The notes under the pieces are model-generated. The model did no database searches and was not told where the DNA came from. It saw only the letters and a program-made list of their open reading frames with translations. 43,750 nucleotides of DNA from a virus: IMG/VR virus record IMGVR_UViG_3300023284_001004, positions 1 through 43,750 of that record, one strand, 5' to 3'. A program made the translations under genes and the position numbers. Below are positions 2,527 to 30,213 of this stretch, in pieces. Position 1 is the first letter of the stretch. Every line of letters starts with the position of its first letter.

Positions 2527-2970
2527 ATGGTTGCACCAATTAACATCCGAGATACGCTGAACTCTCGTGGCGCCAGAGTTACCAAATTTGGTCAATTAGT
2601 TGTAGCGCCACTCGACTATAGTACTGCCATTGAAGTTCAGTTAACCGGTGATCAAGGAACACCCACTGTAGAAAACCTAGTCGGACCGAGTGAGGGACAA
2701 AGTATCGTCATCACTGATGTAATGGTTTTCGGCGGTAAAGATGTTACTCAGGATATACCGGCACAAGTTCAGATCTATGAGGCCAGTTCCGCCACAACAG
2801 AAACGATTGATAAAATTATTTTTACACCACAAGTGGTTAGAGGTTCGAATATTGTAGCGACGAGTTTAAATCTCTTAATTCCTGGAGGGGTTTGGATCAA
2901 TGTACAAGTTGCTGATTTTCCAGTGTTCGTGACGTTGATGTTCTACAGGGTCCCGGCGGAAAATCTATAA
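2527..2970 (+). CDS. Putative virion protein, third member of the small beta-rich group
   Basis: A 147-residue protein. I chose ATG 2527 because a GAGAG ribosome binding site precedes it; a GTG at 2503 would extend it by eight residues. The start INIRDTLNSRGARVTKFG recalls the N-terminal pattern of the two preceding genes, though the body differs. It is beta-rich with no catalytic motif. It ends in a TAATG overlap with the connector gene at 2970. Likely a capsid surface or fibre component, inferred from position. Confidence 0.6.
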   Translation: MVAPINIRDTLNSRGARVTKFGQLVVAPLDYSTAIEVQLTGDQGTPTVENLVGPSEGQSIVITDVMVFGGKDVTQDIPAQVQIYEASSATTETIDKIIFTPQVVRGSNIVATSLNLLIPGGVWINVQVADFPVFVTLMFYRVPAENL

Positions 2971-3353
2971 TGGCTAGAGTTACGGCAACAGAAGTGCGGG
3001 TCATATTACCAGACTCGACCACTTTGACTGACGATCAGATTGATGCGGCCATTGCTGCAGCGACGTGCCTAGTTGATTCGATTGCTACTGGTTGCGCTTC
3101 ACATCTGACTGACGCCTGCCTTAAACAAGTTGAGCTCTATTTAGCAGCCCATTTCGCAGCCTCTACTGAGAACACACTAACGCTTGCATCAGAAACAGAT
3201 CCCTGTAGTGGTGGCAAAGTTGTCTATGGGTTTAAATTTGGCGAAGGTGTGAAGGGTACACCATTTGGTCAGAACGCTAATATGCTATCAGGTGGTTGCC
3301 TTGCTGAGTTTGATAAGCAGCCAACTGATCTGTTGAGTATAGGTTGCCATTAA
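2970..3353 (+). CDS. Head-tail connector protein (gp6/DUF4054-like)
   Basis: A 127-residue protein with an N-terminal helical segment typical of the gp6-like connector family: a short beta start, then LTDDQIDAAIAAATCLVD, a cysteine-containing helix and a helix rich in Leu/Ala (VELYLAAHFAAS). Such proteins dock under the portal to extend the head-tail channel. It overlaps the upstream stop as TAATG and the downstream start as TAATG, and it is followed by a joining protein and a gp10-like protein, the standard connector order. Confidence 0.75.
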   Translation: MARVTATEVRVILPDSTTLTDDQIDAAIAAATCLVDSIATGCASHLTDACLKQVELYLAAHFAASTENTLTLASETDPCSGGKVVYGFKFGEGVKGTPFGQNANMLSGGCLAEFDKQPTDLLSIGCH

Positions 3354-24982: not shown

Positions 24983-26623
24983 ATGCAATTAAGGCCCTAC
25001 CAGCAGTCATGCAAGGATGACATCTTATCCCACTGGGCGCGTACACCGCTGGCCAATGTACTGGCAGTCAAGCCTACAGGTGCGGGTAAAACCGTTGTGA
25101 TGGCAAGTATCATTCATGATCATAACGGCGCATCGTGTGCGATTGCTCATCGTCAAGAGTTGGTTGGCCAGATATCAATAGCCTTAGCCCGTGAAGGTAT
25201 TCGCCATCGTATCATTGCACCTCAATCAGTTATTCGTGACATTGTTCAATCGCACACTCGTGAGTTAGGTCAATCATGGTATGACCCAACAGCACGGGCA
25301 GCGGTTGCGGGCGTCGATACGTTATTAAGACGGGCCGATAGTCTACGCGATTGGATGAATAGTGTAACGTTATGGGTTACCGACGAGGCTCATCACTTAT
25401 TAGATAATAATAAATGGGGAAAGGCTGCTGAGTTATTCCCTAACGCTAAAGGCCTGGGTGTAACAGCAACACCACTCAGGGCCGATGGTGCTGGATTGGG
25501 CCGACATGCTGACGGTGTGTTTGATTACATGGTGGAAGGTCCATCGATGAGGTGGCTGATTGATAATAGTTATTTGACTGATTATCGGATATTTGCACCG
25601 CCTAGCGATTTTAAGATGAGTGACCAAGATATCGGTTCAACTGGCGATTATTCAGCACCTAAGATGCGTGCCGCCGCCAGGAAGTCGCACATCATCGGTG
25701 ACGTAGTTACCCACTATCAGCGTATAGCACCAGGCAAGTTGGGCGTTGTATTTGCTACTGATATTGAAATCGCCACCGATATCGCTCAACAATTTAAAGC
25801 GGCGGGCGTAGCAGCTGAGGCAGTCAGCAGCAAGACACCGAACAGTGAACGTGCAGCCATCTTACGCCGATTTAAAGCCTGCGAATTAACTGTATTGGTC
25901 AATGTCGATTTGTTCGGTGAGGGCTTTGATTTACCGGCCATTGAAGTAGTCAGTATGGCCAGACCAACAATGAGTTATGCGCTATATGTGCAACAATTCG
26001 GCAGGGCGTTAAGGCTGATGACAGGTAAAACCGAAGCAATTATCATCGATCACGTCGGTAATGTTCAACGCCACGGGTTACCGGATAAGCCGCGTGTGTG
26101 GTCACTGGACCGCCGTGAACGTGGTAGTCGTGGCGCCAAAGATCCTGATCTGATCCCCGTTAAGACCTGCCAGGCATGCACCGCTGTTTACGAGGCCACA
26201 CATCATATTTGTCCGTTCTGTAGTCATTATAATGAGCCTGCTGGCCGTAGCCGACCTGAACAGGTTGATGGTGATCTAACTGAGCTTGACCCGGCTGTGT
26301 TGGCTGAGATGCGCGGCGAAATTAAACGCATTGATCAGCCAGCTGAGGCGGTTGGTCAGCGAATGAGAGCGGCTGGGGCACCCGGGCCAGCTGTTGGGGG
26401 TGCGATGAAAAATCACCTGAACCGCCAGGATGCACAGGGTAAACTTAGAGACATGGTAGCGTTATGGGCAGGTTATCAACGGGCTGCAGGGCGTGATGAT
26501 CGTGAATCCTATAAGCGATTTTTCTGGCGATATGGCGTTGATGTTATGGGAGCTCAGGCATTAGGTCGCAATGATGCAGAAATACTCACTGCAAAAATTG
26601 CCACTGATTTACTTGACATTTGA
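24983..26623 (+). CDS. SF2 DEAH-type helicase with zinc finger
   Basis: A 546-residue RecQ/UvsW-like SF2 helicase. Motif I GAGKT is at 33-37, motif II DEAH at 134-137, motif III TATP at 161-164, motif V EGFDLP at 313-318 and motif VI QFGRALR at 338-344. A C-terminal four-cysteine zinc-binding segment lies at C396-x2-C399 and C410-x2-C413. It probably acts on replication or recombination DNA. The last codons of the gene contain the -35 of the promoter driving the pentapeptide genes. Confidence 0.88.
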   Translation: MQLRPYQQSCKDDILSHWARTPLANVLAVKPTGAGKTVVMASIIHDHNGASCAIAHRQELVGQISIALAREGIRHRIIAPQSVIRDIVQSHTRELGQSWYDPTARAAVAGVDTLLRRADSLRDWMNSVTLWVTDEAHHLLDNNKWGKAAELFPNAKGLGVTATPLRADGAGLGRHADGVFDYMVEGPSMRWLIDNSYLTDYRIFAPPSDFKMSDQDIGSTGDYSAPKMRAAARKSHIIGDVVTHYQRIAPGKLGVVFATDIEIATDIAQQFKAAGVAAEAVSSKTPNSERAAILRRFKACELTVLVNVDLFGEGFDLPAIEVVSMARPTMSYALYVQQFGRALRLMTGKTEAIIIDHVGNVQRHGLPDKPRVWSLDRRERGSRGAKDPDLIPVKTCQACTAVYEATHHICPFCSHYNEPAGRSRPEQVDGDLTELDPAVLAEMRGEIKRIDQPAEAVGQRMRAAGAPGPAVGGAMKNHLNRQDAQGKLRDMVALWAGYQRAAGRDDRESYKRFFWRYGVDVMGAQALGRNDAEILTAKIATDLLDI

Positions 26624-26640
26624 GACGGAATGGTCATAAT
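26613..26640 (+). promoter_or_regulatory. Strong sigma70-like promoter, copy 1 of a duplicated block
   Basis: TTGACA at 26613-26618 and CATAAT at 26635-26640 are separated by 16 bases. The block from the -35 through the ribosome binding site of the first pentapeptide gene is nearly identical to the inverted copy at 32157-32100. It overlaps the helicase stop codon. Confidence 0.75.
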
Positions 26641-26668
26641 TCAATAACACTCATTTACGGAGTATGTT

Positions 26669-27031
26669 ATGAACCAGGCAAAACTAGACGATATTCTCGA
26701 AAAACACAAAACATGGTTGATTGATAATAACAAAGGCGTACGTGCCGATCTATCGCACGCCGATCTATCACATGCCGATCTATCGCACGCCGATCTATCA
26801 CATGCCAATCTATGGGATGCCGATCTATCATATGCCGATCTATCACATGCTGATCTGTCGGATGCCCACCTACGGAGCGCCAACTTGTCGCATGCTGATC
26901 TGTGGAATGCCAACCTACAGAATGCCAACCTGTGGAATGCCAACCTGCGGGATGTAAACCTGTGGAGTGTCAACCTACAGGATGCCCACCTGTGGGGCGC
27001 TAAGTTGCCGGATACTCACCTACGGGATTAA
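26669..27031 (+). CDS. Pentapeptide repeat protein 1
   Basis: A 120-residue protein (ACGGAG site before the ATG). Residues 1-28 form a helical leader (LDDILEKHKTWL...KGVRADLS) shared with two tandem paralogues. The rest is about eighteen five-residue repeats of the A(D/N)LSH/W type, which fold as a right-handed square helix mimicking B-DNA in known families. It stops without the C-terminal globular domain of paralogue 2. Candidate roles: DNA-mimic inhibitor of gyrase or restriction, or a scaffold. Promoter copy 1 drives it. Confidence 0.85.
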   Translation: MNQAKLDDILEKHKTWLIDNNKGVRADLSHADLSHADLSHADLSHANLWDADLSYADLSHADLSDAHLRSANLSHADLWNANLQNANLWNANLRDVNLWSVNLQDAHLWGAKLPDTHLRD

Positions 27032-27980
27032 TATCATGAAACAAGCAGAACTAGACGATATTCTTGAAAAACACAAATTATGGCTGACTGATAATAAAAA
27101 AGGCGTACGTGCCGATTTGTCGCGTGCGTGTGCTGCGCTATGGGGTGCCCACCTGTCGCATAACCACTTACGGAGCGCCAACCTATCGCACGCCAACCTA
27201 TCGCATGCAGATCTGAGGGGTGTCGATTTGTCATACGCCAACATGTCATACGCCAACCTATCGCACGCCAACCTATCTCATGCCAACCTGTCATATGCCA
27301 ACCTGTCATATACTAGCCTACCGTGTACCAACCTGTCATATGCCAATCTAATGGGCGTCCACGGGGAAAGACGTCGTATCAAGTCAATTTTTATCAGCAA
27401 TAAGTACCCGGTTACGTACACAGATACAGTGTTGCAGATTGGTTGTGAACGTCACTACATCAATGAATGGTGGGGATTCGATGATCAGCGCATCATTGCA
27501 ATGGACAATAAGACAGCACTCAAGTGGTGGCGCAAATATAAAGACATGATTCGTCAAATTATCGAGCATTCACCAGCAGTATAATTATTTATGGAGTATG
27601 TTATGAAACAGGCAGAACTAGATGATATTCTCAAAAAACATATATTATGGTTGATTAATGATGAAAAAGGTGTACGTGCCAACCTGTCGCATGCCGATTT
27701 ATCGTGTGCCAACTTGTCGCATGCCGAGCTGAGGGGTGTCGACCTGTCGTATGCCAACTTGTCGCATGCCGATCTGTCGCATGCCGATCTGTCGCATACC
27801 AACCTGCGGGATGCTAATCTATGGGGTGCCGACCTGTCGCATACCAACCTACAGGATGCCAACCTGTGGAATGCCGATCTATCGCATGCCAACCTGTCGC
27901 AAGCCAAGCTACAGAATGCCGAACTATGGGGCGCCAAGCTGTCATATGCTTACCTATGGGAAGCCGAGCTATGGGGTACT
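26745..27980 (+). repeat. Degenerate 15-bp tandem repeats coding pentapeptide arrays
   Basis: About 1.2 kb built mainly of 15-base units encoding A(D/N)L plus two residues, split over three genes by non-repeat joins. The similarity between units allows recombination, so repeat number and the fusion of genes may vary between isolates. Confidence 0.8.
27036..27584 (+). CDS. Pentapeptide repeat protein 2, with C-terminal domain
   Basis: A 182-residue paralogue starting four bases after gene 1. The leader LDDILEKHKLWLTDN is near-identical to gene 1. Pentapeptide repeats occupy about residues 25-105. A globular C-terminal domain follows (IKSIFISNKYPVTYT, GCERHYINEWWGF, ALKWWRKYKDMIRQI), which I recall from other phage pentapeptide proteins. 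Only this paralogue has it, so genes 1 and 3 may be shortened copies or expression variants. Function unknown. Confidence 0.85.
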   Translation: MKQAELDDILEKHKLWLTDNKKGVRADLSRACAALWGAHLSHNHLRSANLSHANLSHADLRGVDLSYANMSYANLSHANLSHANLSYANLSYTSLPCTNLSYANLMGVHGERRRIKSIFISNKYPVTYTDTVLQIGCERHYINEWWGFDDQRIIAMDNKTALKWWRKYKDMIRQIIEHSPAV

Positions 27981-27998
27981 CACCTGGCGCCTCACTGA
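27603..27998 (+). CDS. Pentapeptide repeat protein 3
   Basis: A 131-residue paralogue from ATG 27603, with a TATGGAGTATG leader matching the one before gene 1. An ATG at 27591 gives four extra residues and lacks a site. The shared leader (LDDILKKHILWL) is followed by about twenty pentapeptide repeats and ends abruptly in HLAPH without the C-terminal domain. The arrays differ in order from genes 1 and 2, so duplication is not recent at full length. Confidence 0.85.
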   Translation: MKQAELDDILKKHILWLINDEKGVRANLSHADLSCANLSHAELRGVDLSYANLSHADLSHADLSHTNLRDANLWGADLSHTNLQDANLWNADLSHANLSQAKLQNAELWGAKLSYAYLWEAELWGTHLAPH

Positions 27999-28003
27999 AT
28001 CAC

Positions 28004-28213
28004 ATGCATAACGGATCAAATCCTGTAATCACTATTGATCAGATGGCATGGGTATTTGAACAATTAAGTGACGATGTTTCATTAAAAGTGTTGGCTGTTG
28101 AGCTTAACGTTGATGTCAGCACATTAACCAGAAGATTAAACCGCGCAGAACGTGAAGGGTTTGCGGCATTTAGAGGTAAACGTAGTGAATATCAGAATTG
28201 TGCGGATAAGTGA
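28004..28213 (+). CDS. Small helix-turn-helix protein
   Basis: A 69-residue protein from ATG 28004, five bases after the pentapeptide gene stop. Residues about 15-50 (LSDDVSLKVLAVELNVDVSTLTRR) form a helix-turn-helix, followed by a basic helix-end (RAEREGFAAFRGKR). It likely binds DNA as a regulator of nearby genes. The ribosome binding site is weak, suggesting coupling. Confidence 0.6.
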   Translation: MHNGSNPVITIDQMAWVFEQLSDDVSLKVLAVELNVDVSTLTRRLNRAEREGFAAFRGKRSEYQNCADK

Positions 28214-28322
28214 AAATAAGTTTTTACTCATGGAGGATGACCTTGAGATTGCGATTGTTTTTTCATTCAAGGAAGCCAAATATTTACAACTCAATATGGC
28301 CATAACGGAGCTTCTATCATGA
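28185..28322 (+). CDS. Small hypothetical protein overlapping the HTH gene
   Basis: A 45-residue frame from GTG 28185, with AGAGG eight bases upstream, overlapping the end of the HTH gene by 29 bases. A shorter ATG start lies at 28230. It reads MNIRIVRISENKFLLMEDD, then helical residues, and stops in an ATGA overlap with the cupin-like gene. The good site and the coupled stop support it; no homology is recognised. Confidence 0.45.
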   Translation: MNIRIVRISENKFLLMEDDLEIAIVFSFKEAKYLQLNMAITELLS

Positions 28323-28894
28323 TTAACAAATTACTTTATCGCATTACAGCAAATCTGCCTTGTGATATTAGTCCTCATCTTGAGCGTTATTATCTTGGAT
28401 GCTTGTTCGGTGTGACTTTCTATCTGTATCGATTTATCAAGATGTTTAATGAATCCCGTATCCATAATGATCCCTGGACGCACGGCGGCGCGGTAGTGCT
28501 GTCGGGCAGCTACGATGAGGAACGCGCTATTGATCTATGCCCGACTGCTGGCGATTGTGGCTGTCGGACACAGATAAGACATATACGTTGGTTCAATCGG
28601 ATTGACGGCAATGCCTTCCATCGTATTTTTTACGCCGTACCCGGCACCTGGACATTGTTCGCGCATGGTAAACGTCCTGTTAATAAAGGTTGGGGATTTT
28701 TGGAACATGAATATCTTGTTGGCTATCACGATGTCACGGTGTTTAAGCCATTTCAGTCAGCAAGGACTAAGTGGTGGTTGACGGCGCCCTTGGGTCGTGA
28801 TGCTGGGAGGGTGGTGTTAAAGACTGACGAACGTCTCAGTAAGTGGAAAAAGGCATTTGACGATGCGAAAGCATGGAGACAGCGCAATGATTGA
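28319..28894 (+). CDS. Cupin-like metal-binding protein
   Basis: A 191-residue protein starting in an ATGA overlap. It has the small-cupin layout seen in phage proteins: H49-N-D-P-W53-x-H55 with a paired GSYDEER further on (E67/E68), H101 in AFHRI, then WTLFAHGKRP and a tryptophan-rich segment. These residues suit a metal site. A cupin fold suggests a dioxygenase, epimerase or sugar-modifying role, but substrate cannot be inferred. The N-terminus is hydrophobic-basic. Confidence 0.6.
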   Translation: MINKLLYRITANLPCDISPHLERYYLGCLFGVTFYLYRFIKMFNESRIHNDPWTHGGAVVLSGSYDEERAIDLCPTAGDCGCRTQIRHIRWFNRIDGNAFHRIFYAVPGTWTLFAHGKRPVNKGWGFLEHEYLVGYHDVTVFKPFQSARTKWWLTAPLGRDAGRVVLKTDERLSKWKKAFDDAKAWRQRND

Positions 28895-29341: not shown

Positions 29342-29737
29342 ATGAGCAAAGAAATTCTAGTAAATAAAGACGCATTATTCAGAGTGCTACAAGCTTTAGT
29401 TGGGCCTACTCACATTTTGAATGAAATGGTTTATCTTCAACAGATGGATGAAATGATTAAATCCATGAGTGATGAAAACCCAATTGACACATTAATCAAA
29501 GATTATCAAACGGCTAAATACACCATAGATACTGGGAGGGTGGCTTTGGGAGCAATTATAAACGGAATTAAAATATCTGAAGGTGATGTTGTTGATTATG
29601 AACACAATGAAGCGGGCGGCGGAATTGCGAGAAAGGAAGTCATTTTTGATGACAATTACGGTGTCTTAGTGGAAAGACCATATAACTGTTCAAAATATTA
29701 CAATTTGGCAGGTTTGAAATTTAAGGTTGTACTATGA
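29342..29737 (+). CDS. Hypothetical protein in the accessory region
   Basis: A 131-residue protein with a GGGAGCG-type site before the ATG. Residues 1-65 are helical, 70-131 beta-rich (VVDYEHNEAGGG, VLVERPYNC). It overlaps the VRR-NUC gene start by four bases (ATGA). No catalytic residues recognised; likely an accessory factor of unknown function. Confidence 0.6.
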   Translation: MSKEILVNKDALFRVLQALVGPTHILNEMVYLQQMDEMIKSMSDENPIDTLIKDYQTAKYTIDTGRVALGAIINGIKISEGDVVDYEHNEAGGGIARKEVIFDDNYGVLVERPYNCSKYYNLAGLKFKVVL

Positions 29738-30213
29738 ACAATATCAGCGAATGGGCAGCCAAATACAATGTCAGTCAAGAAGCTTTGGCGGAACTGCAGG
29801 CAATAGCCGTACCTGATGAGGTGACTACCACTGCGGGCAGTAGTGAAGCATCCGCACAACAGCGAATTAGACTTGAGGCGCCACATCACGGCGTTAGACT
29901 GTGGCGTAATAATGTTGGGGCTTGTATGGATGAATACGGTAACCATGTTCGATATGGGCTAGCTAATGAGTCGAGCGCAATGAACCGTAATGTTAAGTCT
30001 AGCGATTTAATCGGCATCACCCCTGTCACTATCACACAGCAAATGGTGGGTGGTGCTTTGGGAGTATTCACCGCAATTGAGTGCAAGCGACCAGGTTGGC
30101 GATATAAAGCCAGCGCTCGTGAAGCTGCTCAATTATCATACATGCAGATTGTGATTGCATTGGGTGGGATTGCTCAATTTGCTACCGGGCCGGGGGATAT
30201 ATGGCCAGTATAA
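29734..30213 (+). CDS. VRR-NUC domain nuclease
   Basis: A 159-residue protein. Residues about 45-155 form a VRR-NUC (PD-(D/E)XK-type) nuclease: RLWRNN at 56-60, D91 followed by LIGITPV, E115-x-K117 in AIECKRPG, then a Q133 helix (AQLSYMQIV). Such phage nucleases cut branched DNA or trim ends; Fan1 is a eukaryotic relative. The first 40 residues are helical and may be a partner-binding region. Its start overlaps the upstream stop as ATGA. Confidence 0.8.
   Translation: MNNISEWAAKYNVSQEALAELQAIAVPDEVTTTAGSSEASAQQRIRLEAPHHGVRLWRNNVGACMDEYGNHVRYGLANESSAMNRNVKSSDLIGITPVTITQQMVGGALGVFTAIECKRPGWRYKASAREAAQLSYMQIVIALGGIAQFATGPGDIWPV

Follow-up and report, generated by a model that had tools for sequence, protein, structure and literature searches.

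Three adjacent paralogous genes in a 43.75-kb virus genome are predicted to encode short, helix-capped members of a phage-wide family of pentapeptide-repeat beta-helices, and they may constitute, at a probability of roughly 0.45, an accessory early-gene cassette of protein-binding solenoids lodged in a slot between a helicase gene and a VRR-type nuclease gene. The window referred to below is the whole stretch analysed, that is, the 43,750 nucleotides of IMG/VR record IMGVR_UViG_3300023284_001004. The reading builds on the family to which the genes belong, the predicted fold, the slot, the change in array length among relatives, and the modularity of the C-terminal domain (CTD). The family itself is already known from annotation; what is new is the pair of genes lacking the CTD and the tandem arrangement.

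In outline, a promoter at 26613 would drive early expression of the cassette, gene 2 being coupled to gene 1, and the solenoids would bind a host protein rather than imitate DNA. The CTD of gene 2 may provide a second binding surface, the acidic, CTD-less products of genes 1 and 3 may be rods that partner the basic gene 2 product or provide an alternative to it, and gain and loss of whole units in the 15-bp repeats would allow rod length and surface to change quickly.

The three genes

Table 1. Features of the cassette and its borders (positions counted from the first nucleotide of the window).
Feature	Position	Strand	Remarks
DNA helicase, left slot border	24983..26623	+	phrog_16, E = 2e-88; 80 relatives in IMG/VR
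Sigma-70-like promoter match, TTGACA-16-CATAAT	26613..26640	+	consensus match only; -35 box overlaps end of helicase gene
GGAG ribosome-binding site, gene 1	26659..26662	+	from sequence; context TTTACGGAGTATGTTATG
Gene 1: leader and 19 pentapeptides, no CTD	26669..27031	+	120 aa, net charge -9, pI 5.4
Gene 2: leader, array with one 2-residue register break, CTD	27036..27584	+	182 aa, net charge +5, pI 9.1
Gene 2 CTD: beta-hairpins and long helix, motif IGC-x2-H-x4-W	27345..27581	+	no Pfam family
GGAG ribosome-binding site, gene 3	27593..27596	+	from sequence; homologous to gene 1 site
Gene 3: leader and 21 pentapeptides, no CTD	27603..27998	+	131 aa, net charge -8, pI 5.6
Small ORF, weak winged-HTH resemblance	28004..28213	+	best Pfam match HTH_24, E = 5.8e-4, below cut-off
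ORF related to phrog_4786 (annotated cysteine dioxygenase), in slot	28319..28894	+	E = 4.5e-15
VRR-type nuclease, right slot border	29734..30213	+	phrog_93, E = 2.1e-17

The products of all three genes match the Pfam Pentapeptide family PF00805 (E = 1.2e-36, 3.8e-28 and 1.7e-35 for genes 1, 2 and 3), with scores of 97-124 bits against a curated cut-off of 20.2, and Tandem Repeats Finder places 15-bp units at 26743-26995, 27176-27346 and 27677-27920. In each gene a helical leader precedes the array, as judged from the alignment and from matches to phrog_7713 (E = 9e-45, 6e-25 and 4e-38, respectively); the leaders are 25 residues long, are 72-78% identical, and share 20 invariant residues. These results bear out the earlier, sequence-only reading of three neighbouring paralogues with long arrays, as well as its claim that an extra C-terminal domain is limited to the middle gene. 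The CTD with the IGC-x2-H-x4-W motif, of about 75 residues, is present in gene 2 and absent from genes 1 and 3, and a CTD profile search of the region returned this one copy and no remnant beside gene 1 or gene 3. The gene 2 array comprises about 19 units, the register break included, and has a single Trp at the outward +1 position of its units; genes 1 and 3 have five each.

Genes 1 and 3 are 62% identical in alignment, end in a common final unit (THL), and, when aligned from a common start, reach 71% base identity versus 65% over all offsets. Given the shared end and the superior co-started alignment, the two genes probably owe their CTD-less form to inheritance or exchange and not to two separate losses.

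The start of gene 2 was set at 27036, as the GTG start at 26967 given by the ORF lister falls within gene 1, and that of gene 3 was chosen by its GGAG ribosome site. The ribosome sites of genes 1 and 3 are homologous (TTTAC/TGGAGTATGTTATG). Gene 2 begins 4 bp past the stop codon of gene 1 and has no GGAG site of its own, which makes translational coupling to gene 1 probable; one possible reading is that a deletion fused the gene 1 array to the start of gene 2. The strong promoter that had been proposed upstream corresponds to one sigma-70-like match at 11 of 12 positions, the sole such site on the plus strand, where about 0.5 per strand are expected in shuffled sequences; it is a good putative promoter by resemblance to the consensus. 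Likewise, the small gene said to lie next to the cassette is present as an ORF that is possibly translationally coupled to gene 3, its resemblance to HTH proteins lying under all HTH cut-offs and a search for phage relatives having returned none.

Predicted fold

AlphaFold2 models of gene 2 (pLDDT 91.7, alignment of 14 sequences) and gene 3 (pLDDT 95.6, alignment of 11 sequences) have an N-terminal helix at residues 3-18 followed by a regular beta-helix with a bridge every 5 residues, and in gene 2 the CTD is modelled as hairpins and a long helix at 150-178. The two proteins are thus confidently predicted to be square, four-sided beta-helices, in agreement with the fold anticipated from the sequence, and the arrays of the three proteins would form about 4.5-5.3 coils. 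Among PDB entries, Foldseek ranked pentapeptide proteins at the top for gene 2, with MfpA, QnrB1 and AlbG among the weaker matches, and in BFVD it recovered phage pentapeptide proteins, including those of the Rheinheimera Barba phages.

The family in other phages

Genes built like gene 2, with leader, array and CTD, are present in Rheinheimera Barba phages, in P22-like Salmonella phages and on a Leptospira plasmid, as well as on many IMG/VR contigs, and a single gene of this design is also found in Edwardsiella phages. The closest known counterparts of gene 2, with the same three-part design, are orf232 of Salmonella phages ST64T and L, the Barba proteins, and those of Edwardsiella phages MSW-3 and PEi21 (phrog_7713, phrog_31567, phrog_37032); over its length gene 2 shares about 32-47% identity with the Salmonella and Barba members, which have a similar early or replication setting. 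All of these, however, are single genes, whereas here three stand in tandem and two are without the CTD. A literature search found no paper testing the function of this family.

Leaders and CTDs are conserved across long distances, and the CTD is modular. The same CTD is found on other leaders in further phages, and conversely the Listeria prophages combine the same leader and array with a different CTD, as in gp51 of B025 and gp53 of A500, early-region proteins whose leader is 55-61% identical to that of the present genes and whose array is similar. In Vibrio phage 1.139.A a CTD of the same family (CTD profile, 3.6e-7) follows a YdcK-type beta-solenoid (Pfam PF18836, 2.8e-16), and the same holds for a prophage-like bacterial locus, L190 (CTD profile, 3.2e-5), where the YdcK-type solenoid was read from the sequence; in both, another solenoid repeat takes the place of the pentapeptides. 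A domain for which a Pfam search gave no match is therefore common to pentapeptide rods and another kind of solenoid. It is rare in the sampled bacterial genomes, taken by group (0 of 288, 0 of 295, and 2 of 368 others). A scan with the 1.139.A CTD found nothing, a broad CTD alignment contained no stretch conserved enough for scanning, and the ST64T gene had no match in E. coli genomes.

In the record of phage 1.139.A (MG592510.1; locus L100, 2784-2923), CRISPR spacers are annotated within the YdcK-type solenoid gene (CDS 2575-3177); they resemble the tandem repeats of that gene rather than a CRISPR array.

Where annotation is available, family genes usually lie among early, recombination or replication genes. 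The gene adjoins ral in four P22-like records (ST64T, ST104, L, and a 14028 replicon), follows N in epsilon34 and g341c, and stands between Gp157-like and helicase-like genes in ctgwJ031; in Listeria B025 and A500 it is near Gam-like, Sak4, helicase or SSB genes.

Genome setting and a possible role against host defence

The record carries tape-measure, baseplate, polymerase, primase and terminase genes, and by gene content the phage is a myovirus. No close relative of it was found: the first 25 kb are without a near match, and for the polymerase even the best relatives do not exceed about 60% identity. With gene 2 as the query no relative was found in IMG/VR, and the helicase, CTD and leader served instead as routes to relatives. 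Those of the helicase include Vibrio phage CP-T1, Shewanella phage SppYZU01 and Edwardsiella phage MSW-3. The VRR nuclease is also present in 74 of the 80 IMG/VR helicase loci, lying downstream of the helicase in 73, at a gap of -3 to 3572 bases, with a nuclease match upstream in one more. The helicase-nuclease interval is a variable slot for extra genes, and in relatives it is occupied by, among others, three C5 DNA methylases checked against Pfam, an N6/N4 methylase, and ThyX.

Slot methylase genes are found at loci L006, L007, L053 and L067, where they were checked against Pfam, and at L010 and L060, where the assignment is by sequence resemblance; methylases are often there in related phages. 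The phrog_4786-related gene of the present slot has a counterpart with 46% identity in another slot (L033, 2205-2765) and few other phage relatives.

Pentapeptide genes are absent from the slot in all 74 relatives that have both flanking genes, a few of which carry one elsewhere. Among 50 related virus records searched whole, three contain a pentapeptide gene, always single: MSW-3, a second record, of 43,378 bases, and a third (G987) in which the leader and the C-terminal domain are different. Lack of conservation of the triplet in relatives would speak against the sequence-only reading, and this is partly what was seen: no second triplet was found in any searched set and the tandem is known from one genome, although single genes of the leader-array-CTD design are widespread.

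What the proposed solenoids might bind is suggested in part by this setting. The ral neighbourhood in the P22-like phages and the methylase-bearing slot both point towards counter-defence, which is the least certain step of the cassette reading and, while conceivable, must be held as doubtful. Gene neighbourhood and rapid length change are no proof of a defence target, and neutral slippage in a tolerant spacer could account for the latter. A narrower proposal is that a restriction enzyme is inhibited by one or more of the three proteins, which may belong to an early group of counter-restriction genes; the sequence-only reading had entertained anti-restriction, with host takeover as the other possibility. 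What speaks for either is gene neighbourhood, namely the adjacency to ral and the methylases in the slots of relatives; the genes have no match among the PADLOC models, and they lack the conserved negative charge that a DNA mimic like Ocr should have, so that specific anti-restriction activity seems rather unlikely.

Change in array length

In the family at large, the leader and CTD appear to stay constant while the array changes by whole units, as was anticipated from the 15-bp repeat and is now seen on comparison of relatives in three phage groups. Nine Salmonella records encode proteins of 169, 179, 184, 194, 214, 239 or 244 residues, that is, in steps of five; apart from one substitution in two records their leader is the same, the CTD is nearly so, and the arrays have 13-26 units. 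Phages L and ST64T, which are otherwise more than 99.9% identical, differ here by one unit, reported as a 15-bp deletion (PMC8022706). Arrays of the Listeria type have 3-24 full units in 27 complete genes, and the number of units differs in 24 of 26 pairs whose upstream DNA is at least 98% identical, the pairs not being independent of one another.

Array lengths also differ among the Barba isolates, some records of which have frame-broken arrays. These phages were sequenced with 125-base reads (PMC6715854), which are shorter than the arrays, so the length differences and frameshifts may be assembly errors and were demoted as proof of length change. The same short-read caveat applies to a second repeat gene of the Barba phages (annotated PF01469; L085-L093, locus about 1315-2292), which is 963 bp long in two isolates and 978 bp in the others, a difference of 15 bp.

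An uncultured Roseovarius metagenome-assembled genome (OX638333.1, loci L126-L130) has five copies of one CTD-bearing pentapeptide gene on one chromosome; the 4.2 kb downstream are identical, and one of the copies is shorter by 87 residues. The copies possibly represent a multi-copy prophage or a misassembly, and they were set aside as proof of length change.

A rod that changes quickly would be expected if the target of the cassette were a variable host factor, for example a restriction enzyme or another defence protein. The opposing view is that the arrays are tolerant linkers that vary by slippage, the triplet being a tandem duplication kept by chance. Gain and loss of units is indeed common in the three phage groups, frame-broken arrays do occur in Barba records, and the triplet is unique among the searched sets and could, being known from one genome, be a purposeless duplication. 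Against this view, all codon changes at the central Leu position are synonymous in gene 1 (8 of 8, with 2.8 expected) and in gene 3 (10 of 10, with 4.1 expected), which argues that these arrays are under constraint and not decaying. Moreover, the ends of the proteins are conserved over long distances, and the duplication is not very recent, since the leaders of the paralogues differ at 12-17% of bases. A purely neutral or structural spacer is a somewhat poorer candidate than an anti-restriction protein.

A bolder version of the cassette reading would regard the family as length-tunable solenoid binders, with a constant leader, swappable CTDs, and an array that follows a variable host target in 15-bp units, the present genome having expanded the family to three proteins, a basic rod with the CTD working jointly with two acidic rods that lack it. 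This is unlikely as a complete account, on a level with the anti-restriction proposal. The triplet, in which forms with and without the CTD stand in one operon, offers a compact system for separating the roles of rod and domain.

The DNA-mimic model

Phages encode many pentapeptide proteins, most of them unexplained, and the gyrase-protecting DNA mimic is the model commonly applied to them. A DNA mimic should keep its length and its negative charge. Under that model the three proteins would modulate gyrase or topoisomerase in the manner of MfpA and Qnr, binding host gyrase and altering or protecting host replication during phage growth, and the sequence-only reading had likewise drawn attention to B-DNA mimicry. 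The triplet does share the square beta-helix fold of MfpA, Qnr and AlbG, genes 1 (-9) and 3 (-8) are acidic, and phages are known to encode gyrase inhibitors of other types (PMC10886550).

The genes score 20.8-38.1 bits with the Qnr model (NCBIfam NF033086, curated cut-off 240) and 15.7-45.4 bits with the MfpA model (NF000349, cut-off 360), and the proteins are shorter than these gyrase-binding ones. An acidic, DNA-sized solenoid is not what was found in the family: gene 2 is basic (+5), the charge per unit lies between -0.41 and +0.22 in the arrays of 14 relatives, and relatives' arrays range from 3 to 26 units with their caps unchanged. In addition, MfpA, Qnr and AlbG dimerise through C-terminal helices (PMC10886550), which is impossible for genes 1 and 3, as they have no such helix. 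With length varying between fixed ends, charge near-neutral or mixed, and scores far below the cut-offs, DNA mimicry of gyrase is disfavoured and has become the least probable of the readings considered. A rod that binds protein and is able to vary in length and surface agrees better with these observations. A phage-wide design with constant ends and an unstable middle is not one that the DNA-mimic model predicts.
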